This document shows positions 4,084 to 36,997 of a DNA stretch of 54,568 bases, piece by piece. Within the stretch, counting starts at the first letter, position 1; the number at the start of each line of letters is the position of its first letter. Origin of the DNA: a bacterium (GTDB taxonomy: Bacteria > B130-G9); contig JAGHCW010000149.1 in assembly GCA_021160245.1 (NCBI GenBank), positions 1 to 54,568 on the forward strand. The letters are read 5' to 3'. Both the position numbers and the translations under genes were made by a program. The notes below the pieces were generated by a model. The model saw only the letters and a list, made by a program, of their open reading frames with translations, was not told the DNA's origin and searched no databases.

Positions 4084-5508
4084 TTAGGAGTGGCGCTTGA
4101 TGCGGCGGCCTATCTTCCGCAGGAAGAAGCGCGGGTGCCTGATATGCCTTTTCAGGCGACTTGAGAACTTGATATAGGTATCATTCGCCCTTCTGAGGCC
4201 CGCCTCAAGGTCCTCTTTCGAGAGCGCCTCAGTTCGTATGACCGCCATGCTATTGCCGTCGTATTCGGCGAAATTGTGCGAGAGCAGAAAGCCCTCGCGC
4301 TCAAGCTGCTTGTAGAACTTCGTGCCCGGCCAGGGGGTGGCAATGGAGAACTGCATGGAGTCGGGGCAGAGCTCAAGCGAGAGGTCGATTGTCTTCTGCA
4401 TAGTCTCCTGCGTCTCGCCCGGCAGGCCCAACATGAAGGTTAGGTGGACCCATATACCCATCTTTTTCGTGAGCAGCACCATCTCCCTGACCTTCTTGAG
4501 ATCGAGCGACTTTCCGCAGCGGTCCACTATTTCTTGTGAGCCGGACTCGACGCCGTATTTTAGGCCCTTCAGTCCGGCCTTCTTGAGCGCTGTGAGCAGC
4601 TCCTTGTCCATTGTGTCGGCCCTGGCCATGATCGACCAGGGGACGTTCAACCGCCGCCTCGTGATCTCCGAGCAGAGATTCAGTATCCGCTCCTTGCCGA
4701 TGTTGAATGTGTCGTCATCGAAGAAGAATGACTTAATACCCATCTCTTGGACGAGGCTCTGCATCTCATCGACGATTTTGATCGGGTCCCTCGCCCTGTA
4801 TTTCTTGCTGCCATACATTATCTGAGGCCATGCGCAATAGACGCAATTGTATGGACATCCCCTTGAGGCCCACATCTGCGCGCTCGGCATCGGTATCTCA
4901 CCCGGAGTATCGCAATAGACATCCATTGGCAGGAAGTGCCTCGCGGGCCAAGGCAGCTCATCTATGTTCTCAATGAGAGGACGATCACCCGTGAACTTCG
5001 GGCCGTTGCTCGAGCGATAAAGAAGGCCGCTGACCGCATCGAGCGAGCTGCCATCGCAGAGAGCCTTCACAAGGTCACGGAGGATGTATTCGTACTCCCC
5101 CTTCATCACAAAATCCACGTCCGGATGCTCGTTAAGGAACTCCGGCTCGAACATTTCAGTGTGCATTCCGCAGAAGACTATCTTCGCATTGGGACAAGCT
5201 CCCCGGACGCGCCTCGCACAGGCTATGTCCGTCTCAATCGAGATTGTGGAGACCTCAAGCACCACGAGCTCCGGGTCGAACTCCCTGACGCGGCCGATAA
5301 ACTGCTCGTCCGTCAACTTCTCCGCAATACCGTCAACGAGAAGGACGTCAACGCCCTGTCGCTCCAAAACGGCCGTCGCATAGGCGAGAAAAAACGGGAA
5401 GGGCATATACTTGCTGCTATTGCACTGGAAATGCGGCCACCTTGAGCCGGCCCTAACGCCGTAAAAACCCTCCTTTTGCCAGGGCGAATTGCCCAGAAAA
5501 ACCCTCAA
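4084..5508 (-). CDS. B12-binding-domain radical SAM protein (copy 2 of a tandem pair)
   Basis: 474 residues. The N-terminal about 150 residues are a cobalamin-binding-type Rossmann domain (LAYATAVLERQG, VDVLLVDG, FCGMHTEMF), and the radical SAM core carries the CxxxCxxC cluster motif in SRGCPYNCVYC (Cys218, Cys222, Cys225). A conserved DELPWPAR linker lies between them. The C-terminal about 70 residues are basic. The start is TTG, fixed by TAGGAGG five bases upstream. The family (BchE/P-methylase-like class B enzymes) does methylations or ring-forming chemistry on varied substrates; the substrate here cannot be read from sequence. It closely resembles the protein at 5759-7234 over its whole length, and a tiny membrane protein gene sits between them, so they look like a duplicated unit in one operon. 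Confidence 0.9.
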   Translation of the reverse strand: MRVFLGNSPWQKEGFYGVRAGSRWPHFQCNSSKYMPFPFFLAYATAVLERQGVDVLLVDGIAEKLTDEQFIGRVREFDPELVVLEVSTISIETDIACARRVRGACPNAKIVFCGMHTEMFEPEFLNEHPDVDFVMKGEYEYILRDLVKALCDGSSLDAVSGLLYRSSNGPKFTGDRPLIENIDELPWPARHFLPMDVYCDTPGEIPMPSAQMWASRGCPYNCVYCAWPQIMYGSKKYRARDPIKIVDEMQSLVQEMGIKSFFFDDDTFNIGKERILNLCSEITRRRLNVPWSIMARADTMDKELLTALKKAGLKGLKYGVESGSQEIVDRCGKSLDLKKVREMVLLTKKMGIWVHLTFMLGLPGETQETMQKTIDLSLELCPDSMQFSIATPWPGTKFYKQLEREGFLLSHNFAEYDGNSMAVIRTEALSKEDLEAGLRRANDTYIKFSSRLKRHIRHPRFFLRKIGRRIKRHS

Positions 5509-5521
5509 TTAAACCTCCTAA

Positions 5522-5725
5522 TCAGCCCCGCGGCTTGAACAGCGCGGCATCAAGAATCGACCACAGGTGAATAATCCAGCCTAGGAAGAAAAACCAGAGC
5601 ACTGCGGCCAGGACGAACTGGATGATAGCCATCAGCAATCGGCCCTGCAGAAGCTGCCCAAGTCCGGGGATTATAAAGCTGCAAAGCGCCGCTATAACAT
5701 TTCCCGCTGAGCCCTGTCCAGACAT
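5522..5725 (-). CDS. Small TM2-like membrane protein
   Basis: 67 residues with two hydrophobic segments (about 10-25 and 30-55) and the pattern AALCSFIIPGLGQLLQGR followed by WFFFLGWIIHLWSILDAALF. This resembles the short TM2-type or 'SFxIPGLGQ' membrane proteins found in many bacteria, which have no established biochemical role. It lies between the two radical SAM paralogues, 13 bases before the second one, so it is probably cotranscribed. No export signal other than the membrane segments. Identification of the fold is good; the function is unknown. Confidence 0.75.
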   Translation of the reverse strand: MSGQGSAGNVIAALCSFIIPGLGQLLQGRLLMAIIQFVLAAVLWFFFLGWIIHLWSILDAALFKPRG

Positions 5726-5758
5726 GAAATACTCCCTGTCCCGCCTGCCGTTGCCAAC

Positions 5759-7234
5759 TTAGCTGGCCTCGCGACGCTCCCTGTTCTTCCTGATCCTACG
5801 ATTCAACTTCTTCCAGAAAAGGGCGGGATGAGTTATATGGCGACGCAATCGATTGCCGAACTTGCTAAATTTCTCGCGCCTCGTGCGGACATGCTCATCC
5901 CAAAGCCTGCAAGCCTTCCGCAAGGCGCCCTCAAGGTCCTCCTTTGTAAGCGTCTCCGTCCTGATAACGGAGACATTATATCCGTCGTATTCTGCGAAGT
6001 TTTTAGAGAGCAGAAAGCCCTGCTCTTCAACCTGTTTGAAGAACTTGCTGCCCGGCCAGGGGGTTGCGATCGAAAATTGCAGAGAATCGGGGCTGAGCTC
6101 AAGAGCAAGATCGATAGTTTTGTCCATCGTCTCTTTCGTCTCGCCGCTCAACCCGAACATGAACGTGAGATGAACCCATATACCCATGTTCTTGGTGATG
6201 CGGACCATCTCCTTGACCTTTCGGAGGTCAAGCGCCTTGCCACTGCGATCGACGATCTCCTGCGAGGCGTTCTCCACGCCGAATTTCAGCGCCTCAAGCC
6301 CGGCCTTTGAGAGAGCCTTCAGCATCTCCACGTCCATCGTGTCCGCGCGGGCCATGATGGCCCATGGAACTTTGAGGCCGCGTCTTCTGATCTCCGAACA
6401 TATCTTCAAGATTCTCGGCTTGCCGATATTGAAGGTGTCGTCGTCGAAGTAAACAGACCTGAATCCCTCCTCTCTGATGAGGTGCTCCATCTCATCGACC
6501 ACATCAATCGGGTCTCTCGTCCGATATTTCTTGCTCCCGTACATAATCTGGGGCCAGGCGCAATAAACGCACCCATAAGGGCATCCCCTGGAGGCCCACA
6601 TCTGCACGCTCGGCCTCGGGATCTCCCCGGGAGTGTCGCAGTATTTCGCCATAGGAAGGAAGTGCCTCGCCGGCCAGGGAAGCTCGTCGATGTTCTCGAT
6701 AAGCGGCCTGTCGCCGGTGAAGACCACATCGCCATCTGAGCGAAAGAGAATGCCCGCAACGTCGGCGACTGGCATATCATTGCTGAGCGCCTTCGTCAGG
6801 TCTCGAAGCGTGTACTCGTATTCGCCCTTCATGACGTAGTCTATGTCATCGTGGTTCCGCAAAAACTCCGGACTGAACATGTCGGTATGAACGCCGCAGA
6901 AGACGATCTTTGCACTCGGGCAAGCCGCCCGCATCCTCTTCGCGAAGGCGAGGTCAACCTCAATTGAGATCGTGGAGACCTCCAGAACAATGACTTCGGG
7001 ATCGAGGCCTTTGGCCCGGCCCAGGAAGTCGTCCTCGCTTATGCCCTCGGCAATCCCATCCACCATCAGAACGTCGTGCTTCTCCTGCTCCAAAACTGCC
7101 GCGGCGTAAGCAAGAAAGAACGGGAAGGGCATGTAGCCCGCATCACACTTCTCAAAATGGGGCCACCTTGAACCGGCTCGAACGCCATAGAAGCCATCCT
7201 TCCGCCAGGGCGAGTTGCCCAGAAAAACCCTCAA
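5759..7234 (-). CDS. B12-binding-domain radical SAM protein (copy 1 of a tandem pair)
   Basis: 491 residues with the same layout as its downstream paralogue: cobalamin-binding-type domain (about 1-150), then a radical SAM core with SRGCPYGCVYC (Cys218, Cys222, Cys225). Motif positions match the paralogue residue for residue; the main differences are a longer basic C-terminal tail here (about 420-491, very Arg/Lys-rich). The start is a TTG preceded by GGGAGG. It is the first gene of the radical SAM unit, 43 bases downstream of the end of the metallo-hydrolase at 7278. Substrate unknown. Its duplication with high similarity suggests either recent amplification or two enzymes acting on related substrates. 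Confidence 0.9.
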   Translation of the reverse strand: MRVFLGNSPWRKDGFYGVRAGSRWPHFEKCDAGYMPFPFFLAYAAAVLEQEKHDVLMVDGIAEGISEDDFLGRAKGLDPEVIVLEVSTISIEVDLAFAKRMRAACPSAKIVFCGVHTDMFSPEFLRNHDDIDYVMKGEYEYTLRDLTKALSNDMPVADVAGILFRSDGDVVFTGDRPLIENIDELPWPARHFLPMAKYCDTPGEIPRPSVQMWASRGCPYGCVYCAWPQIMYGSKKYRTRDPIDVVDEMEHLIREEGFRSVYFDDDTFNIGKPRILKICSEIRRRGLKVPWAIMARADTMDVEMLKALSKAGLEALKFGVENASQEIVDRSGKALDLRKVKEMVRITKNMGIWVHLTFMFGLSGETKETMDKTIDLALELSPDSLQFSIATPWPGSKFFKQVEEQGFLLSKNFAEYDGYNVSVIRTETLTKEDLEGALRKACRLWDEHVRTRREKFSKFGNRLRRHITHPALFWKKLNRRIRKNRERREAS

Positions 7235-24760: not shown

Positions 24761-25900
24761 ATGACAAGGACAACCGTGATTTGGCTTTTTGTGGTGGCTT
24801 TTAGCCTCATGGGAAGCTGCGTATTTGGCGAAATCTTGACCGTGCAGCACGCCCACGGCGAGCTCAGTCTGAACGGAGTGATTCAGACCTACTATGCGGA
24901 ATATGAGAACGATGACATGGCCGACACGTTTGACCTCAGGCGTGTGTGGATGAACGTCTCGGGCCAAGCTTATGATAAGTTTTACTTCAATTTCATGTAC
25001 ATGTTCAGCGGTAACAACCAGTTCAGCGGTAACAACCAGAGGTTGCTTGATGCTTTCATAACCATGAAGTTTATCCCCAATCTGGACATCTCTGTTGGCC
25101 AGATGTGGAAGCCGGTAACCTATGAGGCGATTGGATCGACGACGACGCTCCCGTTCATCAGGTACGCCCTACCGACTACGTTCTACATGGGTCGTATCGA
25201 CAATGTGGTTGTCGTGTGCCGCGACATTGGCGCTAAGCTGACGTTCCATCTTGAGAAGGACGATTTTGATATGTTGCTGTTCGAGGGCGGTGTCTTCAAC
25301 GGAACCGGTATCAACACATCTGACAATAACGATCAGAAGGATTACATTGCAAGGGCTCAGATTCAGCCAGTTAAGGGCCTGAAGTTCCTTGGCAACTACA
25401 CCTACGGGAGTTACGGCGATAAAGCCCCCGAGGGCGTCAATCAGACTCAGTTTTTTGGTCATGAGGAGTATCAGCAGTACAGCGGTGGCATCGCAGTTGA
25501 CATAGCCGGCATCGACTTTATCAGCGAGTGGATTGCCATGAGAAGAGAGTATCTCCACAACCCGTTCAATCAGGGCATAGTGGCCTTGAATAACCGCGGT
25601 TGGGACTCCTACGGCTGGTATGCCCACTTTGGTTACAAGATTGATACAGGTGGCGATTATTTCCACGAGATAGAGCCAATTGTCCGTTACGAGTACATGG
25701 ACCCGAATCGAGAGGTTATCAATGACCTGATGAGAGTTGTTACTTACGGTGTCAACGTCGCGATCGACAAGAAATATGCGAGACTCCAGCTCAACTACAT
25801 CCAGAATTTCAACGATAGCTGCTCCCACGATCTTGGTGGAACCTCGAATCCAGAGCTGGCTGACAACGTCTTCATAGCACAGCTGCAGGCGGCATTCTAG
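24761..25900 (+). CDS. Outer-membrane porin, phosphate-selective porin O/P type
   Basis: 379 residues. A signal peptide (about 1-24, ending GSCVFGE) leads into GELSLNGVIQTYYAEY, then alternating amphipathic strands typical of a 16-18 strand porin: FDLRRVWMNVSG, FYFNFMYMFSG, DAFITMKFIPNLDISVGQMWKP (the conserved GQ.KxP segment of Porin_O_P), and a C-terminal strand ending in Phe (FIAQLQAAF) as BamA substrates do. The substrate cannot be read from sequence. AAGGAG lies 11 bases before the ATG. A direct 18-base tandem duplication (25004-25039) adds one FSGNNQ in what is probably a loop. A terminator follows. Confidence 0.85.
   Translation: MTRTTVIWLFVVAFSLMGSCVFGEILTVQHAHGELSLNGVIQTYYAEYENDDMADTFDLRRVWMNVSGQAYDKFYFNFMYMFSGNNQFSGNNQRLLDAFITMKFIPNLDISVGQMWKPVTYEAIGSTTTLPFIRYALPTTFYMGRIDNVVVVCRDIGAKLTFHLEKDDFDMLLFEGGVFNGTGINTSDNNDQKDYIARAQIQPVKGLKFLGNYTYGSYGDKAPEGVNQTQFFGHEEYQQYSGGIAVDIAGIDFISEWIAMRREYLHNPFNQGIVALNNRGWDSYGWYAHFGYKIDTGGDYFHEIEPIVRYEYMDPNREVINDLMRVVTYGVNVAIDKKYARLQLNYIQNFNDSCSHDLGGTSNPELADNVFIAQLQAAF
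25004..25039 (+). repeat. 18-bp perfect tandem duplication in the porin gene
   Basis: TTCAGCGGTAACAACCAG occurs twice in a row and encodes FSGNNQ twice. It keeps frame, so expansion or contraction would only change a loop length. Confidence 0.9.
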
Positions 25901-25951
25901 AGAACGAAGCATGACAACCCAATTGGGTATTGTGCATAACTGTTAATATGC

Positions 25952-25994
25952 AGAGGGCAGGTAGCGCATCAGCTGTCTGCCCTCTTTGATTTTG
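25952..25994 (+). terminator. Intrinsic terminator after the porin
   Basis: AGAGGGCAG (25952-25960) pairs perfectly with CTGCCCTCT (25977-25985) around a 16-base loop, followed by TTGATTTTG. It ends just before the mazG ribosome binding site. Confidence 0.85.
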
Positions 25995-26009
25995 TTGGAG
26001 AGACCAGAC

Positions 26010-26825
26010 TTGATCAACCCGGAAATGCCCCGCGAACGCGCCTCCGAAATCGCCGACATCTTCCTCAAGCTCGTCGATGTTATCGCCGCCTTGAGGGGCG
26101 AGAACGGCTGTCCATGGGACAAGGAACAGACGAGGGATTCTGTCAAAATGAACCTCGTTGAGGAGGCTTATGAGGCGCTTGATGCTATCCGCGAAGCCAT
26201 TCCCTCGAAGATCGCGTCGGAGTTGGGCGACCTTATGATACAGGTTCTATTCCATTCGCAGATATCGCAAGAGCTGGGCGAGTTTGACGTGGGCGATGTT
26301 CTCTCGGCGGCAATTGACAAGCTCGTGAGGCGGCATCCGCACGTATTCTCGGACGCTAAGGTCAGCGATTCGAAGGAAGTTTTGAAGAACTGGGAGGACA
26401 TTAAGAAGGTCGAGCGTGGTGGCGAGTCCGTTCTGGCGGACATCCCTCAATCACTCCCCGGTTTCCTGCGCGCGCTTGTCGTGCAGGACAAAGTCGGTCG
26501 CGTCGGCTTCGAGTGGCCGGACAAGAAAGGCGCCATTTTGAAGGTCCGCGAGGAGCTCGCGGAGCTGGAAGAGGCCCTTGCAAGCGGCAGGAAGGATAGG
26601 ATAGACGCCGAGTATGGTGACTTGATCCTAATTGTCCTCAATCTCGGCAGGTATATCGGCTCAAATCCCGACGACGCTCTGCGCGATGCTGTGATGCGCT
26701 TTGAGGAGAGATTCAAGTGTGTTGAACTGGCGCTTAAAAGGGCGGGAATGACGCCGTCTGAGGCAACGCTTGAATTGATGGACTCGCTTTGGGATGAATG
26801 CAAGTCAAAAGAGCGACGTGGATAA
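26010..26825 (+). CDS. mazG: Nucleoside triphosphate pyrophosphohydrolase MazG
   Basis: 271 residues. It hydrolyses (d)NTPs to monophosphates and pyrophosphate as a housecleaning enzyme. The family signature GENGCPWDKEQT opens the first MazG domain, with EExYE-type NLVEEAYEALDAI and ELGDLMIQVLFHSQI supplying the metal-binding acidic residues, then RRHPHVFSD. The second domain has AELEEALASGRKDRIDAEYGDLIL. I choose TTG 26010, 7 bases after GGAGAG; ATG 26025 is the alternative, and the upstream part of the frame overlaps the preceding terminator. Confidence 0.9.
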   Translation: MINPEMPRERASEIADIFLKLVDVIAALRGENGCPWDKEQTRDSVKMNLVEEAYEALDAIREAIPSKIASELGDLMIQVLFHSQISQELGEFDVGDVLSAAIDKLVRRHPHVFSDAKVSDSKEVLKNWEDIKKVERGGESVLADIPQSLPGFLRALVVQDKVGRVGFEWPDKKGAILKVREELAELEEALASGRKDRIDAEYGDLILIVLNLGRYIGSNPDDALRDAVMRFEERFKCVELALKRAGMTPSEATLELMDSLWDECKSKERRG

Positions 26826-26840
26826 TCGCCACGCCGCCCT
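26810..26840. terminator. Bidirectional terminator between mazG and the peptide operon
   Basis: AGAGCGACGTGG (26810-26821) pairs with CCACGCCGCCCT (26829-26840); on the minus strand the two G-T positions still pair and the hairpin is followed by TCTTTTGAC, on the plus strand by TCTGGTTCTTTG. It overlaps the mazG stop codon and lies 38 bases beyond the end of the minus-strand peptide gene. Confidence 0.6.
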
Positions 26841-26878
26841 TCTGGTTCTTTGTTCTAACTTAAGGTAATTGTAGCCGC

Positions 26879-27001
26879 TCAGCAGCCGCTTGCTGACCCG
26901 CCAAAGCCTGTGCATGACAAACTCGGTCCCAACGTCGCAAGTATCGCCTCACTGTCAATCGTCAAGACTCTCGGCGCCTCATAAACTCTATTCGTCTTCA
27001 T
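26879..27001 (-). CDS. 40-residue Cys/Gly/Ser-rich peptide, possible RiPP precursor
   Basis: A short gene directly behind the beta-helix gene: ATG at 27001, stop TGA at 26879. AAGGAG lies six bases before the ATG and only 13 bases separate the ATG from the upstream stop, so translation is well supported. The peptide begins MKTNRVYEAPRV, continues through an acidic hydrophobic middle (LTIDSEAILATLGPS) and ends in SCTGFGGSASGC, with Cys30 and Cys40 as the last residue. A YxxP-type leader followed by an IL..LGP turn and a small Gly/Ser/Cys core is the look of ribosomally made, modified peptides. There is no signal peptide and no maturase next to it. Alternatives are a small regulatory or toxin peptide. 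Function is not established. Confidence 0.6.
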   Translation of the reverse strand: MKTNRVYEAPRVLTIDSEAILATLGPSLSCTGFGGSASGC

Positions 27002-27014
27002 CAATATCTCCTTC

Positions 27015-27644
27015 TTATCGAACGGTTAGCAGTTGGCTATGTAGGTCGGCTGCGTAGGACGGCCTTTTCAGGCTGTCAAGCAGGTCTATCGGGATCGTTG
27101 CCGAAGCCGGACCATGAGCCGTCCATTTGCCGCTAGTCTCGATGTCAACCAGCCAGTAGTTGTAGTTGACGCCCGGCTCTGCATTCCTATCCTGGAAGCT
27201 GTAGAAGGCGCCAAAGGCAGCGGTGCCCTGCGCTGCGATTAGACCACTTATGCTTCGATAAACGGAGCTTCCGGCCTCGGAGCGATAGAGCATAAAGCCG
27301 GCATTGTCGATCTCGGCGCCAGTTTCCCAGCTGATGCTGATGCCGCGTGCATCAGGCTTGGCCTCAAAGGAGACGAGCTCAATGAAACTTGAGCCATGCG
27401 TTATTGAGTGGTAGCCCATGTCGATAACATCATCATTGTCGGAGCCATCATAGACTCCCGTCTTGTCCGTCGTGTAGGGGTGGGGATCCTTGATGTCGGA
27501 TGCGTGATACTCGGTGTCGTCCCCTGAATCCACCGCCAGGCTATCGCGCTCGAGGAAGTAGCTGGCGCACGGAGAGCTGTCATAGACATCGAACTTCGGG
27601 TCATCAAAAACGTTCCCTGTCTGGGGATAGACCTCGCCATCTTT
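27015..27644 (-). CDS. C-terminal part of the secreted beta-helix protein, after an amber codon
   Basis: 209 residues in the same frame as the upstream part, separated from it only by TAG at 27645-27647. The first 37 residues (KDGEVYPQTGN, then VYDSSPCASYFLERDS) continue the beta-helix with the usual 'dates, SPC, DSG' ending of such proteins (LAVDSGDD). A fibronectin-like domain follows (about residues 85-190: ISISWETGAEIDNAGFMLYRSE), common at the ends of secreted bacterial proteins. An internal GTG at 27533 could serve as a start, but no ribosome binding site is evident. As translated from that GTG it would lack a signal peptide, so it is more likely the lost or read-through half of one gene. 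Confidence 0.65.
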   Translation of the reverse strand, partial: KDGEVYPQTGNVFDDPKFDVYDSSPCASYFLERDSLAVDSGDDTEYHASDIKDPHPYTTDKTGVYDGSDNDDVIDMGYHSITHGSSFIELVSFEAKPDARGISISWETGAEIDNAGFMLYRSEAGSSVYRSISGLIAAQGTAAFGAFYSFQDRNAEPGVNYNYWLVDIETSGKWTAHGPASATIPIDLLDSLKRPSYAADLHSQLLTVR

Positions 27645-28787
27645 CTACCAGATGTCCGAGTACGTCATGGGAACGCCGCCATTGTATCCATCATCGTAGA
27701 AGCCCTTCTTGTCGCCGCTCTCTCCGCCATCAGGCCAGAAGATGTTGTTGGCGCCCTTCAGGTCCGCATTTTCACAGGTGTTGTCAACATAGACCTCATA
27801 ACCATTGTTGTCCGCAACGGTCGTGCTGTAGATCCTGAACTTCTGGTTGATGCCCCAGTTGCTCATATAGACACCACCACCCAGATCGCCGTCGCCGTTA
27901 TTCCCGTATGCTGCGTCCACAATCTTGTTCTGAATGATCAGATCGTTGAAGAGAACGTGCTCGATCTTCGACCCGTTGTGGATATAGTCGAACCAGTACA
28001 CTCCTCCGCCTCTGGATGCAGAGTTGTCAAAGATGCAGCAGTCGGAAACAATCGCCGGCGTGTAGTTATGGCAGATGCCTCCGCCGCCCATTCCTGTCTC
28101 ATTGCCGTGGATTAGACAGTTATCCACGAAAACGGTCGGCTCGGAACCACTCTTGCAATTGCGCAAGTAAATACCACCACCGCCAGCTAGCGCCGGTGGG
28201 TTTTGGCCGCCCCAGTTGTAATTGCCCTCGCCATCTCGAGATGCGTACGTGCCCTTGGCGTAATTGTCGGAGATTTCACAGTCCTGAATATAAAGCTCCG
28301 TGCAGTTGTTGCAGTATATGCCGCCGCCATTGGCCACTGATACATTTGAATTGTGGTTATCGCTTGAAGTAGAGGCAACGTAGCCTCCGGTAATCGTGAA
28401 GCCTTCGAGCACGAAGTTCGATACGCCCTCGATATTCATGACTCTGGCGATGTTATTCTCGTCCGCCTCGGCATCAATGATGCTGATGCCCATGCCCTTC
28501 CCTAAGAGAGTTGTGCCATCATTTACGCTACCAACTGCGAGCGGAAATGTCTCTCCGTTGGTGGGGCTATAGACGCCGGCTCCGACGTATATTGTCGAAC
28601 CTACCGGTGCCGTGGCTAAGGCGTAAGTGAGGGTTTTCCATGCTTGAGGCCAGGTCTGGCCATCATTGCCATTGGCGCCGGTTGTCTTCACAAAGTAGTT
28701 GGCAGCGCAGGCCCCGACCACGGTGAACGCAAGCATCAATAGCACCACAGCGATGCTGGTAGAGAGGATGTTTCTACGAACCTTCAT
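27645..28787 (-). CDS. Secreted parallel beta-helix (pectate-lyase-like) protein, ends at an in-frame amber codon
   Basis: 380 residues. A signal peptide (MKVRRNILSTSIAVVLLMLAF, ending GACAANYF) is followed by VKTTGANGNDGQTWPQAWKTL, the start typical of right-handed beta-helix proteins with DUF1565-like entry. Repeated coils follow with GGGIYCNNCTELYIQDCEI, GGGIYLRNCK, GGGICHNY and GGGVYMSNWG. The start is ATG 28787 behind GGAGGAAG; a longer frame to 28949 has no such support. Translation stops at TAG 27645 in the middle of the last coil (TYSDIW), and the frame stays open for 209 more codons. Full length would be 590 residues. Catalytic residues for pectate lyase are not evident, so carbohydrate binding or cleavage is only a possibility. 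Confidence 0.8.
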   Translation of the reverse strand: MKVRRNILSTSIAVVLLMLAFTVVGACAANYFVKTTGANGNDGQTWPQAWKTLTYALATAPVGSTIYVGAGVYSPTNGETFPLAVGSVNDGTTLLGKGMGISIIDAEADENNIARVMNIEGVSNFVLEGFTITGGYVASTSSDNHNSNVSVANGGGIYCNNCTELYIQDCEISDNYAKGTYASRDGEGNYNWGGQNPPALAGGGGIYLRNCKSGSEPTVFVDNCLIHGNETGMGGGGICHNYTPAIVSDCCIFDNSASRGGGVYWFDYIHNGSKIEHVLFNDLIIQNKIVDAAYGNNGDGDLGGGVYMSNWGINQKFRIYSTTVADNNGYEVYVDNTCENADLKGANNIFWPDGGESGDKKGFYDDGYNGGVPMTYSDIW

Positions 28788-29536
28788 TCTCTTCCTCCGT
28801 TTGGTTATGTTGCGAAAGTCGCATTGTGTGAAATAGTTATTGCCTTGACTATAACCCTGAGCTCTCTCTGTGTTTTCCGTCTTGTCCTCCACGAAATTAC
28901 TGCGAATCCATTTTGCCTTGCCGAAACGCAAACCCACATAGCCGGCCAACTGAGAAAGGTCTCTACAAGAAAGGTAAGTTGGTCAGGAAGAAGGAGAGCT
29001 CGCACCACACATACCTGTTGATATGGCACTCCATCTACATGACCAGACTATTCTCGCCTTAAGACCGCAGCCTCACTGCGGTGGCCATATTCGAGTGGCG
29101 GTGGGAAGCTATCAGGCCGTTATCCACCGGTTTTCCAATAAACCGGGGTTCAATGCCCCGACATCTTCTTCTTATCCGTCATTACACCAACTAATATAGC
29201 CCAGTTTGCTAAGGGATGTCAAGCTACTGAATGATCCCGAGGGTATGATAGGTCCCAATCGCCTTCTATGTGCTGATTGAGGTCCTTGACAATCATCACA
29301 CGGGCGCTGTTGACCGGGGATTCCGGACATTTTTCGAGATTGCTTGGAGAGTTTCAGGTGCCCGTTTCTTGATGCTATTTCGGTAAAGAACGGAGAGATT
29401 GGAAGAGGCAGGATCATAATAGGGCTTGAGGATGAAGACTCCCCTTAAGAAGCGGCTTGTTCTCCGATGTTAGCTATGGCATTCTAGCTCTCTTTCTGTA
29501 CAAGAGCATTTAATACGGCAATTGGGAGGTTCAGGA
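28788..29536. other. Divergent intergenic region between the beta-helix gene and the subtilase
   Basis: 749 bases with no gene I can support. It should hold promoters for both neighbours; I see no convincing paired -35/-10 boxes. The most structured part is the hairpin cluster at 29064-29160, which would lie in the minus-strand beta-helix leader about 280-370 bases before its ATG. Short frames on both strands here lack ribosome binding sites and family resemblance. Confidence 0.5.
29064..29160. other. Cluster of overlapping hairpins, candidate structured RNA
   Basis: Hairpin 1: ACCGCAG-CCTCA-CTGCGGT (29064-29082). Hairpin 2: CGGTGG (29099-29104) with CCACCG (29124-29129). Hairpin 3: CCGGTTT (29127-29133) with AAACCGG (29140-29146). 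Hairpin 4: CGGGG-TTCAATG-CCCCG (29144-29160). Hairpins 2/3 and 3/4 share bases, so they are mutually exclusive in pairs, as in switch-like RNAs. All stems are perfect. The direction of transcription is not clear; it could be a leader element, a small RNA or a remnant of a mobile-element end. Confidence 0.4.
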
Positions 29537-32500
29537 ATGTTGAAAAAGGCTATATTCGCAGCTGTTCTCTGCGTTTTTGCTTATGTTATTGTTGTTGCCG
29601 TCTCGCCGGGCGCGGAAGAGCCTCCGCTTCTCAAATTGCGAATGGGGTCATTTGTCCCATCTGAGATGTATAAGATGGCGATACCTGGCGAGTTCTTGGC
29701 GAATTCGTATCCCCCGGAAACTGAGGGGCTTTATGTTGTCCAGTTCGCAGGTCCTCCAACACCTGCTGAGAGGCAGGCGCTGCTTGACGCGGGTGGCGAG
29801 ATTGTGGGCTATTTGCCGGACTACGCGTTTATCGTGGCAATGTTCACTGACGCTTTTGCTCAAGTCTCGCTTTGGCCCGGGGATGGCTCGTGGGGAGCGG
29901 TCTGGGCGGGATTATATCAGCCGGCATTCAAGATAAGCCCGGAGCTCGTTGTCGGTGGCTCAGGCCAAGACGAGGCGCAGAGTGTGATCATTCAGCAATT
30001 CGGTCGAGGCGCGTTCGAGCTTGAGGAGCTTTCGCAGCTGGTTCTTGAATGTGGCGCTCGCGTCGAACTGCTTGATAGCAGCATCTTCAAAGATACTCAG
30101 CGGCTTAGGGTGAGGGTGGCCGGCGAAGACCTCTTGCAGCTTGTAACGGAGGTCTCGCGCAGAAGCAACGTGCTCTGGATCGACAAATACCATCCGCCAT
30201 TCTTGCTGAACGATAACTCGCGCTGGATATGTCAGTCCTACATCTCCCCGAGAACACCCGTTTGGGACAATGGGATACACGGCGAGGGCCAGATAGTCGG
30301 CGTTGCTGATACCGGCCTCGACGCAGATATGTGTTTTTTCTACGACGAGTCTGAGGGATTGCCCAGTTCGACGGTCAACAACAACCAGCGCAAGACAATT
30401 GTCTATTATGATCTCGCCGGCAATGGTGACTGGGACGGTCATAGCCACGGGACGCACGTTGCGGGCTCGATCGCTGGGGATAATTTCCTAACGCCCAACG
30501 GCTATGACTTTGGTGACGGCATGGCATATAATGCGAAGCTGGTGGTGCAGGATGTTGGAGCCGGAGGGTCGCTTGTTGGCTTGCCCGGCGACCTAAACAC
30601 TCTCTTCGACCAGGCGATGCAGGCTGGCGCAGTCATCCACTCAAATAGTTGGGGCTCCGGCGCTAATTACTATACGCCGTCTGCTCAGGACATTGATGAG
30701 TTCATGTGGGATAACCCCGACTTCCTCATTGTCGTCGCGGCTGGCAACGCCGGGCCAGAAGTTAATACAGTTGGCTCACCATCTACTGCGAAGAATCTCG
30801 TAACGGCCGGGGCGACTCAGAACAGTTATTCCGGGCAAGACCCGGACAACGTCGCGATATTCAGCAGCAACGGTCCCACCGCTGACGGCCGGACGAAGCC
30901 GACAGTCTGCGCTCCCGGACAAACGGTCAACTCCGCCGCGTGCGATTACAACGTGAGCTCGAACAACTGCGGCCTAATGATGATGCAGGGCACCAGCATG
31001 GCTTGTCCTGTAACCGCCGGCCTTTCCGCGCTTGTGCGTCAGTACTATGTTGATGGATACTACCCCACAGGCTCAAAAGTTCCGGGCGACGCCTTCATCC
31101 CAAGTGCTGCGCTATTGAAGGCTACTCTGGTGAATTGCGCTGCAAATATGTCCGGCGATTATATTGATGGCCCCATCCCGAGCACTGGCCAGGGCTGGGG
31201 GCGCATCCTGCTTGATGATGCGCTCTTCTTTCCAGGAGACGATTGCCAGCTGATGGTCTTCGACGTCTCGCCCGGCCTGCTGCACGGCCATAGCGATACG
31301 TTTGAGATCAAGAGCAATGGCTCCTGCAAGCTCGAGATAACTCTCGTATGGACAGATTATCCATCGACGCTATCCGCATCGCAGAACATAGTCAACAACC
31401 TTGACCTTGCGCTTGTAACGCCAGATGCGGCTACCTACAAAGGCAACAACTACTCTGGCGGCGCCTCGGTTGTCGGAGGCTCCTTTGACGCGATAAACGT
31501 TGTCGAGTGCATTCAGATAAATGAGCCTATATCTGGAAACTACGAGATAGAAATAACGGGGCACAATATTCCTTACGGGCCGCAGCCCTACGCCCTGGTA
31601 ATCACCGGCGCGGTAGCCAACGAGTCCCCAATTCTGTCTGATGCAAGCGTGACGCCCAGTTCCGGGAACGAAGATGACACCTTCACTTTCTCGGTCCATT
31701 ACTTCGACGAGGACGGCGACACGGCGGCGGTTCATCAGCTCTATATTGCAGACCAGGTCTTTGATATGTCCCTCACAGCCGGCTCATCAGCTGACGGAAC
31801 TTTTACATATCAGACTCAATTGCCCGCCGGTAATTTTCACCATCACTTCCAATTCTCAGACGGTCGAGGCGGTCTGACAAGGCTTCCGGAGACGAGCTCT
31901 TACAGTGGGCCATTAGTTGATGGCGATGCGCCGAACTCCACGTGCTCGTGCAATCAGTCCTCGGGAGACCCGATCATCGTGAACTACACGGTGTCCGATG
32001 TTGGCGGCACGGTGTACAAGACCGAGCTCTATTATCGCTATCAGGATGATGACTGGGCTTATACAGGCCTCTGGCAAGGGGGCACAACAGGATTTTTCAC
32101 GTTCCACCCAGCCGATGGCGAGGGGAACTACTATTTCTATACTATCTCCAGCGATACCGCCGGCAATGTTGAGGAGCCGCCTCTCACGTTCGACACGGCG
32201 TCCGTCTATGATATCCAGGCGCCATCTTCGTCCTGCACCGGGCCGGCCTATACATCATCGCAATTCGAGCTCCCATACGCCTCAGACGACGCAGATGGCT
32301 CCGGCGTCGCTACCACCTATTTGTGGTACCGCTATGAGGGAGGCGCATGGTCAAACAGCGGCCTAAACCAAAGCGAGGCGTCTGGCTCCTTCTCCTTCAC
32401 GGCCCCCTCCGGCGATGGCACATACTCATTCTATACAATCGCAGTCGATTTGGCCGGAAACCAAGAGCCGCCACCGCCCTCTCCGGACTGCGAAGTTGCC

Positions 32501-35500
32501 TCGGAGACAGTCGCGCCTCAGTCAACCTGCTCCGCGCCGCGTATCTCAAGACAGAGCGATATTGCAATCGACTTCACCGCATCCGACGCCCAGTCCGGCA
32601 TCCAGACCGTGCATCTGTGGTACAAACTCAACCAGGGCAGCTGGACGGACACATGGCTCGCAGAGGCTGGAGATGCTGGCGCGTTTGATTACCACGTCTT
32701 GACTGGCGATGGTAGATATTACTTTTATACGATAGCAACCGACCTGGCCGGCAATGTCGAGGGTCCTCCGGGCAACCCGGACACTTTGACCATCGTCGAT
32801 ACGACGAGGCCAGAATCGACCTGTACGGCCCCCGCTGGGGTCTCGGCGCCCCTGATACCGGTCTCCTTCATCGCAAGTGATGCAGGAACTAGTATAAGCC
32901 AAACGACGCTATTCTGGCGTTTTGAGGACGGCGCATTCCAGGACTCAGGGCTGGTCGAGGCGGGATTAGCCGGCCAGTTCGATTTCACTACAGCATCCGG
33001 GGAGGGTCACTATTTCTTCTATACGATTTCGGAAGACCAGGCGGGTAACGTCGAGGAGGCCCCGAGTGGATTTGACTCCGAAACACACTTAGACACGCTG
33101 GCGCCCTCATCTTCATGTTCATCGCCGGCCGCCGCGGCAACCCCATTCACGATCGCCTTCGAGTCAGAGGACGCAGGCTCCGGAGTGGGCACAACAAGTC
33201 TCTTCTGGCGCCTCGGGCAAGGCGACTGGGAAGAGTGGGAAACCCCAGTCGCCGGGGAGATAGGTGGCTTTGAATTCGCACCCACACAGGGCGATGGCCT
33301 CTACGGTTTCTATAGCATTGCGACTGACCTAGCGGGCAATCAAGAGCCGGACCCCGGAACCCCAGACACGGAGACCCTATTCGATACGGTGCCGCCCAGC
33401 TCCTCCTGCATCTGCCCCCGATATGCGACTATTGCCAGCATTGCTGTCTCATTCATCGCCTCGGACGACTCGTCAGGGCTGCTCTCAACGTCAATGTGGT
33501 ATCAAGTAAATGACGGCGAGTTTATCGATTCCGGGCAGCACATAGCGGGATTGGAGGGAACTTTCCACTTCATCCCTGAAGACGGCGAGGCCACATACAC
33601 ATTCTATACGGCTGCCGAGGACGCAGCCGGTAACCTGGAAGACCCACCCGTAGCCCCCGACGCCTCATGTGCATACGACATTACCGCGCCTCAAGCAACC
33701 TGCACCTCCCCCGATCGGGGCAACATGTCCCCAATCGTGGTGAACTTCACGGCAGAGGATGCAGTCGCGGGAGTCGCTTCCACCAGATTGCTCTTCAAAT
33801 TCAATGGCGGAGATTGGGAGGATTCAGGCCTATCTATGGTGTCTGATTCCGGCCAATTCACCTTTGCGCCGACCCTCGGAGCAGGGACGTATAGCTTTGC
33901 CGCTATCGCCCTTGACTGGGCTGGCAACGAGCAGGCATGGCCGGTCAGCCCCGACTGCGAGACCGTCTTCGATGAGAATATGCCCATATCAAGCTGCTCG
34001 GCGCCTCCAACATCCAACGAGGCAACGATAGAGGTGACATTCGAGGCGAGCGGCGGAATAAGCGGTCTTCAGCTTGTCGAGCTCTGGTTCGCTTATGAGG
34101 GTGGCGTTGCCGAAGATAGTGGTCTTTCCACAACTGAGGCATCCGGGACACTCTTATTTGAGCCCCGCATGGGTAACGGCCATTACACTCTCTTCACGAT
34201 TGCGACGAACAATGACGCTGTGCAAGAGGTGGCGCCTGAAACACCAGATGCCTCGATTCTTATAGACACGACTGCGCCAGTTACGACCTGCGACGCGCCC
34301 GAATACGCAACAATGGCCTCCGTCGCGATTGCCTTCACCTGTTATGACGCCTTCTCGGCCATTGATTATGTCGAGCTCCAATACAGTTTCAATCAGGGGG
34401 TGTATCACTGGCGTGAACGGGTGGACGGCGCCCCGGCGGGGACGTTTGTGTTCGATTTCCCAAGTGGTGAGGGGGTCTATGATTTCGATATCCTTGCTGC
34501 CGATGCGCTTGGCAACTGCGATGCTCCGGGTGACTCGCTCTGCAGCACAACTACATACGACGTGACGCCTCCCGACTCGTCGTGCGTCTCCCCCGCCTAC
34601 TGCAGCACAGCAACCCTAGCGGTCCAATATGAAGCTTCAGATACCCACTCAGGACTTGCAGATGTGGCTCTATTCTATCAGTTCGGTGAGGCCGGGTGGG
34701 AGCTCTTCGGCTCAGTCCCCTCCAGCGATGCAGGCTCTTATGAGCTCAACATTGGAGCACAGGAGGGTGCGTGGAGCTTCTATACAACCGCCGTCGATTT
34801 GGCCGGAAATGTTGAGGCGCAGCCGCCTGAAGCTGATAGCGTAACAGTAGTTGACAGGACACCACCCGGGGTCACTCTATCGACCCTAGCATGGGCGAAT
34901 CAGGCCGTGATCGATCTTGACTATGAGGCGTCGGACAGCCTTTCGGGTCTTCATCAGGTTGCGCTGTTGTATCGTTTCGACGGGGGTAGCTGGGTGGATA
35001 CAGGCGTTACTTCGGCAGAGGCAACTGGCGTGCTCCCGTTTGAGTTTGCCGATGGCGAGGGGTCCTATGATTTTGCGCTTATGGCTTGGGATATGGCTCG
35101 TAACTCGAACGGCCAGCCAACCGAGCCCCATGCAAGCACAATCTACGATGCGACCCCACCCACGTCGAGCTGTCTAGCTCCCGAGTATGCGACAACGCCC
35201 ACGATTTCCGTGCTATTCAGCGTCTTGGATGAGCTTTCAGGCATTATCACCACACGCCTCTTCTACCGACAGGCCGGCGGGGATTGGGCACCCCTCGAAG
35301 GGCATCTAGAAGGTGTGAGTGGCCAGTTCATTTTCGTGGCGCCCGTGGATGGTGCTTACCAGTTCTATACGGTCTCAACGGACGAAGCCGGAAACTCCGA
35401 GTCTGACAAGAACGCACAATGCGAGACAGTGGTCGATACCGAGGCGCCGGCCTCCAGCTGCGAGTGCCCGGAATACTCAAGTGGGGAGTTTGAGATAACA

Positions 35501-36997
35501 TTCACTGCGAGCGATGCTGTGGGGGGAATAGCTAGCGTCTCGCTATATTACAGAAGTGACGGCGTCGATTGGCAAGATACAGGACTGGTTGAGAGCACAG
35601 CATCCGGGGCGTTTGTTTTTGACCCGCAGGATGGCGACGGAGTATATTCTTTTGTCACAATGGCCTCGGATATTGTCGGTAATGTGGAGTCGCTCTTAAA
35701 CGATCCGGATTGTTTCATACTAGTCGATACGGTGACCCCATACTCGGCGGCGGATTGCGAATCGGTTACTAATCAGGAACCGTTTGAGGTCTCATACACC
35801 GCCTCGGATGAGACGAGCGGCGTCGCATCAGTTGAGCTTTATTACTCGAAGGATGCCGCCCCCTTCGCGACGACGGGCCTGACGTCCGACGGGACATCCG
35901 GGACGCTCCAGTTTGCCCTTGTGGAAGGTGATGGGACTTATGGGTTCTACGCGATTGCGACTGATAATGCGGGCAATGTTCAGGACTCGCCTGTTGAGGC
36001 GGACTGCACGGTATTGCTCGATACTGCGTCTCCGACATCCTCCTGTGCATCACCAGAGTCCGCTACTGAAGGCCCTATTCAGGTAACTTTCACCGCGAGC
36101 GATGCGGCTAGCGGGGTTGATCAGACGCGGCTTCTCTATCGCACTTCAAGAATAACCCCATGGCAGGACACAGGCCTTTCCTCGGCAGGTGAGTTTGGCG
36201 CGTTCGATTTCGACTTCCCTGATGGTGAGGGGCTTTATGAGTTCCAGACGGTTACTACAGATGTCGCCGGCAATGTCGAACCGGAGAGCGAAGTGCCCTG
36301 TTCATCCACAGAATATCAATCAGCCGCCTCTACGTTGTGGGTGTCATTTGACTCGCACGTCTTCGAGGCTATTCAGATTGGCGAACTTGGAACTGTTGAG
36401 CTGATCGTCCGAAATGACGGCAACGCGGACCTTGTCGTAGATACGATAGAGAGCAGCGGAGTTCCCTACTGGGTGGGTGGTCCTCAGCCGTTCACTCTTA
36501 TCCCAGGCGCACAGAGAGCATTGAATCTCTTCTTCTTACCTGTAAGCGAGTTCGTCGCGTCAGGGGAGATAGTTATTAGTTCTAACGACGTGGATGCCCC
36601 AGAGAAGACTATTGCCCTGACGGGTTCTGTTATCACCGGCATCAAACCGTTCCTGACCGTCGTTACAGAGCGGCCTGAGTATCATACATCGGACAGCGTC
36701 TGGGCGCTCTATGCGCTTGGCAACTGGGGCCCGGATGTCTCAGTGGACGCGTACGTTGCGATTCGGTTCCCCGGGGATTCGCAGCTACATTTCCTGATGG
36801 ACTTTTCGGACACGGCGACGCCCATTTCGCTCTTCTTGCCTCAAGGGACCTATATTCCGCCGACGACACTGCTTCAATTCCCCATAAATAGCCCGATAGC
36901 CCAAGGAGAATACGTCATGTACGCTGCTCTTTGTGAATCTGGATCCCATTTTGTGCCATTGAGCGATATTTCCGTGGCGACTTTCACATTCGAGTGA
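29537..36997 (+). CDS. Giant secreted subtilisin-like (S8) protease with 15 Ig-like repeats
   Basis: 2486 residues from ATG 29537 (GGGAGG upstream; TTG 29522 is too early). Signal peptide 1 to about 27; propeptide-like region to about 235; S8 catalytic domain about 240-545 with Asp258 (GVADTGLD), His304 (GHSHGTHVAG), Asn404 (AAGNAGPE) and Ser487 (GTSMACP). A jelly-roll domain follows (about 560-700, KLEITLVWTDYPS), then a module beginning ESPILSDASVTPSSG, 15 Ig-like repeats of roughly 95-100 residues, an ASPM/Hydin-like domain (about 2265-2370, FTLIPGAQRALNLFF) and a final module related to the C-termini of the propeller proteins at the window start. It is secreted or surface-bound. Natural substrate unknown. 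Confidence 0.95.
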   Translation: MLKKAIFAAVLCVFAYVIVVAVSPGAEEPPLLKLRMGSFVPSEMYKMAIPGEFLANSYPPETEGLYVVQFAGPPTPAERQALLDAGGEIVGYLPDYAFIVAMFTDAFAQVSLWPGDGSWGAVWAGLYQPAFKISPELVVGGSGQDEAQSVIIQQFGRGAFELEELSQLVLECGARVELLDSSIFKDTQRLRVRVAGEDLLQLVTEVSRRSNVLWIDKYHPPFLLNDNSRWICQSYISPRTPVWDNGIHGEGQIVGVADTGLDADMCFFYDESEGLPSSTVNNNQRKTIVYYDLAGNGDWDGHSHGTHVAGSIAGDNFLTPNGYDFGDGMAYNAKLVVQDVGAGGSLVGLPGDLNTLFDQAMQAGAVIHSNSWGSGANYYTPSAQDIDEFMWDNPDFLIVVAAGNAGPEVNTVGSPSTAKNLVTAGATQNSYSGQDPDNVAIFSSNGPTADGRTKPTVCAPGQTVNSAACDYNVSSNNCGLMMMQGTSMACPVTAGLSALVRQYYVDGYYPTGSKVPGDAFIPSAALLKATLVNCAANMSGDYIDGPIPSTGQGWGRILLDDALFFPGDDCQLMVFDVSPGLLHGHSDTFEIKSNGSCKLEITLVWTDYPSTLSASQNIVNNLDLALVTPDAATYKGNNYSGGASVVGGSFDAINVVECIQINEPISGNYEIEITGHNIPYGPQPYALVITGAVANESPILSDASVTPSSGNEDDTFTFSVHYFDEDGDTAAVHQLYIADQVFDMSLTAGSSADGTFTYQTQLPAGNFHHHFQFSDGRGGLTRLPETSSYSGPLVDGDAPNSTCSCNQSSGDPIIVNYTVSDVGGTVYKTELYYRYQDDDWAYTGLWQGGTTGFFTFHPADGEGNYYFYTISSDTAGNVEEPPLTFDTASVYDIQAPSSSCTGPAYTSSQFELPYASDDADGSGVATTYLWYRYEGGAWSNSGLNQSEASGSFSFTAPSGDGTYSFYTIAVDLAGNQEPPPPSPDCEVASETVAPQSTCSAPRISRQSDIAIDFTASDAQSGIQTVHLWYKLNQGSWTDTWLAEAGDAGAFDYHVLTGDGRYYFYTIATDLAGNVEGPPGNPDTLTIVDTTRPESTCTAPAGVSAPLIPVSFIASDAGTSISQTTLFWRFEDGAFQDSGLVEAGLAGQFDFTTASGEGHYFFYTISEDQAGNVEEAPSGFDSETHLDTLAPSSSCSSPAAAATPFTIAFESEDAGSGVGTTSLFWRLGQGDWEEWETPVAGEIGGFEFAPTQGDGLYGFYSIATDLAGNQEPDPGTPDTETLFDTVPPSSSCICPRYATIASIAVSFIASDDSSGLLSTSMWYQVNDGEFIDSGQHIAGLEGTFHFIPEDGEATYTFYTAAEDAAGNLEDPPVAPDASCAYDITAPQATCTSPDRGNMSPIVVNFTAEDAVAGVASTRLLFKFNGGDWEDSGLSMVSDSGQFTFAPTLGAGTYSFAAIALDWAGNEQAWPVSPDCETVFDENMPISSCSAPPTSNEATIEVTFEASGGISGLQLVELWFAYEGGVAEDSGLSTTEASGTLLFEPRMGNGHYTLFTIATNNDAVQEVAPETPDASILIDTTAPVTTCDAPEYATMASVAIAFTCYDAFSAIDYVELQYSFNQGVYHWRERVDGAPAGTFVFDFPSGEGVYDFDILAADALGNCDAPGDSLCSTTTYDVTPPDSSCVSPAYCSTATLAVQYEASDTHSGLADVALFYQFGEAGWELFGSVPSSDAGSYELNIGAQEGAWSFYTTAVDLAGNVEAQPPEADSVTVVDRTPPGVTLSTLAWANQAVIDLDYEASDSLSGLHQVALLYRFDGGSWVDTGVTSAEATGVLPFEFADGEGSYDFALMAWDMARNSNGQPTEPHASTIYDATPPTSSCLAPEYATTPTISVLFSVLDELSGIITTRLFYRQAGGDWAPLEGHLEGVSGQFIFVAPVDGAYQFYTVSTDEAGNSESDKNAQCETVVDTEAPASSCECPEYSSGEFEITFTASDAVGGIASVSLYYRSDGVDWQDTGLVESTASGAFVFDPQDGDGVYSFVTMASDIVGNVESLLNDPDCFILVDTVTPYSAADCESVTNQEPFEVSYTASDETSGVASVELYYSKDAAPFATTGLTSDGTSGTLQFALVEGDGTYGFYAIATDNAGNVQDSPVEADCTVLLDTASPTSSCASPESATEGPIQVTFTASDAASGVDQTRLLYRTSRITPWQDTGLSSAGEFGAFDFDFPDGEGLYEFQTVTTDVAGNVEPESEVPCSSTEYQSAASTLWVSFDSHVFEAIQIGELGTVELIVRNDGNADLVVDTIESSGVPYWVGGPQPFTLIPGAQRALNLFFLPVSEFVASGEIVISSNDVDAPEKTIALTGSVITGIKPFLTVVTERPEYHTSDSVWALYALGNWGPDVSVDAYVAIRFPGDSQLHFLMDFSDTATPISLFLPQGTYIPPTTLLQFPINSPIAQGEYVMYAALCESGSHFVPLSDISVATFTFE
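31925..36319 (+). repeat. Fifteen tandem Ig-like repeats in the subtilase
   Basis: Each unit starts D.xxPxSxCxxP, continues through a [VL]xFxAxDxxSG turn, a Tyr/Arg-rich strand with GxW, a GxFxF strand, DGxGxYxFYTIAxDxAGNxE and ends in a short Pro/Asp linker. Units begin near DAPNSTC, QAPSSSC, VAPQSTC, TRPESTC, LAPSSSC, VPPSSSC, TAPQATC, NMPISSC, TAPVTTC, TPPDSSC, TPPGVTL, TPPTSSC, EAPASSC, VTPYSAA and ASPTSSC. The units have diverged at DNA level, unlike those of the C25 protease at 51732. Confidence 0.9.

Follow-up and report, generated by a model that had tools for sequence, protein, structure and literature searches.

The window analysed here, a stretch of 54,568 nt from a Candidatus Coatesbacteria-type MAG (G000, with G002 and G003 in the same family), carries on its minus strand a short gene directly downstream of a gene for a secreted beta-helix protein. 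The preliminary description of this DNA had placed a 40-codon open reading frame here, with AAGGAG 6 bases before its ATG and its start 13 bases past the beta-helix stop, and the sequence agrees with it in all these respects (TAA at 27015-27017 closes the beta-helix frame). The features of the locus are as follows.

27015..28787, minus strand: partner gene, encoding a secreted beta-helix protein (DUF1565-like) with a signal-peptide-like N-terminus; likely start ATG 28787.
27087..27386, minus strand: FN3-like C-terminal domain of the partner, shared with the partners of all intact-core copies.
27008..27013, minus strand: ribosome-binding site AAGGAG, 6 bases 5′ of the ATG (from the sequence).
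26879..27001, minus strand: peptide gene of 40 codons, ATG 27001 to TGA 26879 (from the sequence, paralogues, homologues and selection).
26966..26983, minus strand: leader motif YEAPRV, residues 7-12, of YxxP type and near-invariant in the alignment; proposed RRE-binding site.
26882..26932, minus strand: core LGPSLSCTGFGGSASGC, residues 24-40, near-identical among copies (pN/pS 0.117).
26813..26832, minus strand: terminator-like hairpin 3′ of the peptide gene (consensus scan only).

The translation of the peptide gene is MKTNRVYEAPRVLTIDSEAILATLGPSLSCTGFGGSASGC. When both strands of the window were scanned for ATG-initiated ORFs of 25-80 codons with AGGAG just upstream, three were found, and the peptide ORF is the sole free-standing one because the other two lie inside or at the edge of longer ORFs. 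Neither Pfam nor NCBIfam gave a match for the peptide, and a Sec or lipoprotein signal was rejected, the sole moderately hydrophobic stretch being the core itself. The terminator had been described as bidirectional; the minus-strand hairpin (26832-26813) is there and overlaps the 3′ end of the convergent MazG gene, but the consensus scan listed no plus-strand terminator-like site near it.

Sequence searches of genomes, on which the genome-wide copy counts rest, place the peptide in a multi-copy family. Four further clear copies, 62 to 93% identical, lie on three other contigs of the window genome, and among 60 relatives searched the remaining matches were confined to three genomes of the same family. 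A profile search of 386 genomes gave totals of 5, 7, 15 and 2 in the four family genomes (29 matches) and one convincing distant match outside the family, in G139. Homologues with a conserved leader and a Cys/Gly core, proposed earlier as a check, are thus present in related genomes: the leader signature Y-E-x-P-x-V-x-T and the core LGPSxSCTGFGG...C are invariant or near-invariant in the alignment, and the peptide has the features expected of a precursor, being short with a conserved leader motif and core. The two cysteines, for which a ring or some other modification was suggested at the outset, are conserved with exceptions: Cys30 is present in 25 of the 27 full-length copies (Tyr in G001:C66, His in G002:C209), and the C-terminal Cys is missing from one full-length copy. 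Thus, either some copies can do without these residues or the copies that lost them are decaying.

Duplicated gene pairs exist, and two copies (G001:C74 and G002:C354; L041 4180-4260 and L047 540-632) retain just the 3′ part of the peptide, LGPSLSCTGFGG, without leader or start codon, which may reflect recombination remnants or assembly joins. Both observations would suit an ORF that is a by-product of duplicated intergenic DNA, either non-coding or in decay. However, pN/pS over 25 copies was 0.47 for the leader and 0.12 for the core, while synonymous differences were near saturation (pS ∼0.7). Such low pN/pS despite near-saturated pS indicates that the frame is read as protein, with the core most constrained, and, as judged from these alignments, the frame of the window ORF is under strong purifying selection, the outcome that the preliminary description had left to such a check. 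Moreover, ribosome-binding sites are conserved, since the other copies have a purine-rich site at the position equivalent to the window AAGGAG, and the peptide pattern is conserved in other lineages. The by-product explanation is already contradicted by these data and deserves practically no credence.

The beta-helix partner in the window is interrupted by an in-frame TAG (27645-27647), after which the frame is open to the normal C-terminus; this codon may be a nonsense mutation, a sequencing error or a readthrough site, and the peptide downstream of the interrupted gene is intact. All 25 intact-core copies adjoin a same-strand gene with an FN3-like domain of ∼100 residues, whose signature is W-E-T-G-A-E-I-D-N-A-G-F ... 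Y-Y-L-V-D-I-D-T-x-G-x-W-T-A-H-G-P. Peptide and partner are mostly within 135 bases of each other (upstream, downstream or on both sides; maximum ∼1.1 kb), and the bodies of the partners vary: there are beta-helix-type proteins, a protease of the papain family and one protein that has a C25 propeptide. The domain is scarce, with 14 matches in G000 and 12 in G001. The chance of the 5/5 pairing in G000 was roughly estimated at ∼1e-14 with positions treated as independent, which is only a guide because duplication of gene pairs breaks independence. The pairing persists through large divergence and in both gene orders, and some FN3-domain genes have no peptide. The window partner domain is predicted to be an FN3/Ig-like sandwich, with weak structural matches that include the peptidylarginine deiminase of P. 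gingivalis. Divergent from the partner gene, the window also encodes a predicted secreted subtilase of 2491 aa with many Ig-like repeats (29522-36997).

The C-termini of the partners have a bias of their own, as 19 of 26 peptide-adjacent partners (window, L007-L009 and L035-L049) end in Arg, compared with 12% of other ORFs at the same loci, although the copies are related and so do not count as independent. Overlap with the ribosome-binding site of the peptide gene was rejected as the sole cause, because partners with the peptide further off or upstream also end in Arg. Separately, ELPTAN(C)QLPT-like tails are found in partners at L007, L037, L042, L043, L044 and L048, encoded by a short DNA repeat just before the peptide gene.

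As the possible maturase, the preliminary description had pointed to two B12-type radical SAM genes of the window. These B12-binding radical SAM genes are present (4084-7234) but were rejected, since in other lineages it is a PqqD-SPASM radical SAM protein that is linked to the peptide; the candidate maturase is neither of the two and is encoded on another contig. Searches for PqqD and for SPASM converged on one locus per genome in 4/4 family genomes, where a PqqD protein of ∼96 residues lies beside a PqqD-radical SAM-SPASM protein of ∼463 residues (G000:C17 in the window genome), and PF05402 was above its cut-off in all four for both the stand-alone and the fused domain. Next in the operon is an HprK-like kinase. 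In the three genomes with enough contig sequence beyond it, the kinase is followed by a secreted protein of 1075-1086 residues, which in G000 was recognised as a C25 peptidase with a C25 propeptide; a signal-peptidase-like gene comes next in G000 and G001. A search for co-occurring radical SAM, PqqD/RRE and peptidase genes, as recommended earlier, therefore yields one PqqD-radical SAM locus per family genome.

CX3CX2C and the conserved SPASM cysteines are present in all seven radical SAM sequences. The top structural match of the radical SAM protein is CteB, a thioether-forming maturase with its own RRE, and the sequence profile also spans the RRE and radical SAM domains of CteB. The C25 peptidase of G000 scored 245.2 bits against PF01364 (cut-off 23), its GHG and NCLNG align with GHG and ACVNG of RgpB (the gingipain positions), and its best PDB match is PorU. 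The PqqD, radical SAM, HprK-like and C25 proteins missed the cut-offs of specific NCBIfam families: scores were 116.5/625 for StsB, 84.9/340 for PapB and 74.3/850 for AlbA among the curated radical SAM maturase models, and 257.5 and 283.9 against 420 for the PorU model NF033707. No dedicated exporter was found, and C39/PCAT export was rejected, the matches being weak and non-conserved.

The best-scoring NCBIfam model for the radical SAM protein was that of the mycofactocin maturase, TIGR03962, below cut-off at 133.6 against 265 bits. Together with a core that is almost identical over copies and genomes, this would fit a precursor of a small peptide-derived cofactor (PQQ- or mycofactocin-like) instead of a peptide acting as such. 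Yet three genomes hold 5-15 copies scattered beside beta-helix and protease genes, and no redox enzyme was recognised in the neighbourhoods examined, and we consider a cofactor precursor very improbable.

In the Coatesbacteria genomes the maturase is not adjacent to the peptide, so that their link there is one of homology and co-occurrence. In G001, the maturase operon directly adjoins porin and MazG genes that are homologous (53-66% identical) to the flankers of the window peptide (L082, G001:C167, 708-11026, compared with window 24761-27001), and the homologous flanks suggest that the maturase and peptide loci may once have been neighbours. The same genome has a separate lasso-peptide-like locus with a PqqD-type chaperone and an Asn-synthase-like cyclase (L085, G001:C54, 2534-4815), unrelated to the peptide studied here.

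Tight pairing with a secreted protein and the lack of an adjacent maturase in Coatesbacteria would also be expected if each secreted protein were made with a small companion that stays unmodified, such as a chaperone, an inhibitor or an adaptor, and the likeness to a RiPP precursor were superficial. Against this, divergent relatives of the peptide sit inside PqqD-radical SAM operons. A query with the radical SAM protein against 290 genomes found 8 genomes at 1e-30, and in three of them outside the family (G044, G139 and G189) the maturase operon itself encodes a divergent peptide, in the following orders.

G044: PqqD, peptide, secreted protein, radical SAM, HprK-like, C25, signal peptidase.
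G139: PqqD, peptide, secreted protein, radical SAM, HprK-like, contig end.
G189: peptide, radical SAM, HprK-like, secreted protein, contig end.

These peptides follow the pattern Y-x-x-P-x-V-I-T-Y ... LG(P/T)(A/V)QAC and share Y..P.V.T...G...C...C with the family. In each of the three genomes the operon peptide is the only convincing match, and none was found in five sister genomes where the radical SAM protein was not found. The secreted neighbour in the operon carries the FN3-like domain in G139 (5e-32), G189 (3e-22) and G044 (6.5e-19); in G139 this gene beside the peptide is the best match for the domain, the next best being 9e-8, and its product scores above cut-off for a T9SS type A tail as well. 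Hence, beyond the Coatesbacteria family too, shared operons and FN3-domain neighbours connect the peptide with the maturase and with the partner domain. Because two of the three divergent peptides were found via the operon, the agreement is a shared pattern and not an unbiased co-occurrence count, and the co-occurrence of peptide and maturase rests on few independent lineages. Moreover, the leader contains an RRE-type motif, and a peptide of 40 residues whose core is rich in Gly and Ser is not likely to fold; an unmodified small protein is, in our judgement, unlikely.

A second peptide type, Y-[KR]-K-P ... EEAVLG-x-CK ... GP-x-QS-x-C-x-IPQCFN-x-GS, was seen beside other FN3-domain secreted genes in G044 and G189. 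The second type is also present in G386 and G321, where the radical SAM protein of this system was not found. Weaker relatives occur in several further genomes, in operons of PqqD, a different radical SAM protein, an HprK-like protein and a signal peptidase. The second type (L136, L142, L153, L158, L161, L174 and L181-L187) has no Pfam or NCBIfam match, and the window peptide family may belong to a larger class as one of its branches.

Several known systems share parts of this arrangement. The SynChlorMet cassette (TIGR04248-04251) and HPr-rel-A (TIGR04352/04353) likewise combine a PqqD-family chaperone with an HprK-like protein, and SynChlorMet also has radical SAM/SPASM enzymes; here, however, the radical SAM protein has a PqqD domain of its own, and the system is linked to a C25 peptidase and to secreted partners with the FN3-like domain. 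Scores for both cassettes stayed below the curated cut-offs (best for SynChlorMet: ScmD 37.5/100, ScmE 120.6/400, ScmF 89/400, ScmC 12.1/125). Sactipeptide and ranthipeptide maturases (CteB, StsB, SkfB) resemble the present enzyme in uniting RRE, radical SAM and SPASM, and a core Cys is likewise common to the precursors. CteB is the closest solved fold at ∼20% identity, whereas the many scattered precursors and the tie to secreted proteins set the present system apart, and a thioether here is putative. The kinase associated with the lasso peptide paeninodin is HprK-like. Lasso peptides with such a kinase, which acts on the paeninodin precursor, have a YxxP leader and a discrete RRE as here; a lasso peptide was rejected, as the core LGPSLSCTGFGGSASGC has no Asp/Glu macrolactam acceptor and the maturase operon has neither a transglutaminase-like leader peptidase nor an Asn-synthase-like cyclase.

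On the side of the secreted proteins, the T9SS sortase PorU and its CTD cargo offer a C25-family enzyme with conserved His/Cys motifs and a C-terminal beta-sandwich domain shared by the cargo, as in the partners here. The likeness rests on the C25 enzyme and the cargo domains, whereas a peptide gene and radical SAM maturation belong to the present system. GlyGly-CTERM/rhombosortase (PMC3237569) and exosortase systems also have many scattered substrates for a single processing enzyme, but the conserved short sequence here has a gene of its own, next to that of the secreted protein, and does not form the tail of that protein. The literature searched contained no paper with LGPAQAC, GPAQAC, LGPSLSC or SCTGFGG, and none was found that describes a radical SAM RiPP operon with a C25 peptidase.

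The preliminary description had seen a RiPP-type precursor beside a secreted-protein gene, and this assignment has gained from the multi-copy conservation, the selection on the frame and the PqqD/RRE-radical SAM/SPASM operons that enclose a like peptide elsewhere. Our reading, well supported by sequence comparison, is that of a RiPP with an RRE-bound leader, modified in trans by the PqqD-radical SAM-SPASM enzyme, whose product would act with secreted FN3-domain partners (probability about 0.82). The Y-x-x-P-x-V leader would be captured by a PqqD/RRE domain; YxxP is listed among RRE recognition sequences (PMC12710340). The one radical SAM enzyme per genome (G000:C17) would then modify the LGPSLSCTGFGGS..C core, most likely at or around Cys30, so that one operon would act in trans on all peptide copies of a genome. 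As an optional step, the HprK-like kinase may phosphorylate core Ser/Thr, in the way that a kinase phosphorylates the paeninodin precursor (PMC9266682). The C25 peptidase and the signal peptidase would probably process the product during export, and, since the peptide is made together with FN3-domain secreted proteins, it probably works with these proteins at the cell surface once it is mature.

A more specific version of this RiPP reading, which we hold to be doubtful, is that the C25 (PorU-like) enzyme cuts the partners within their C-terminal region and couples the modified peptide to these proteins as a surface tag or anchor, in which case their frequent C-terminal Arg could be part of the tagging signal. 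Such chemistry is conceivable because, in P. gingivalis mutants without A-LPS, free peptides become linked to CTD proteins in a sortase-like manner (PMC4560394). If true, it would mean that a genetically encoded, post-translationally modified peptide is used in protein sorting.

A RiPP maturase usually has a single precursor, or a few, encoded next to it, and the products are regarded as antibiotics, signals or cofactors. We file the present family under RRE-dependent radical SAM RiPPs, with many precursors per maturase, the tie to secreted proteins and the C25 peptidase as its unusual features. In each genome a single maturase locus seems to act on as many as fifteen dispersed precursors, every intact precursor goes with a secreted protein that has the same C-terminal domain, and the link between peptide, maturase and partner recurs outside the family, with a PorU/gingipain-family peptidase where the sequence reaches. 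The tie to secreted proteins suggests a peptide-tailoring system linked to surface proteins, and points to peptide modification in surface-protein biogenesis in a lineage with almost no experimental biology.
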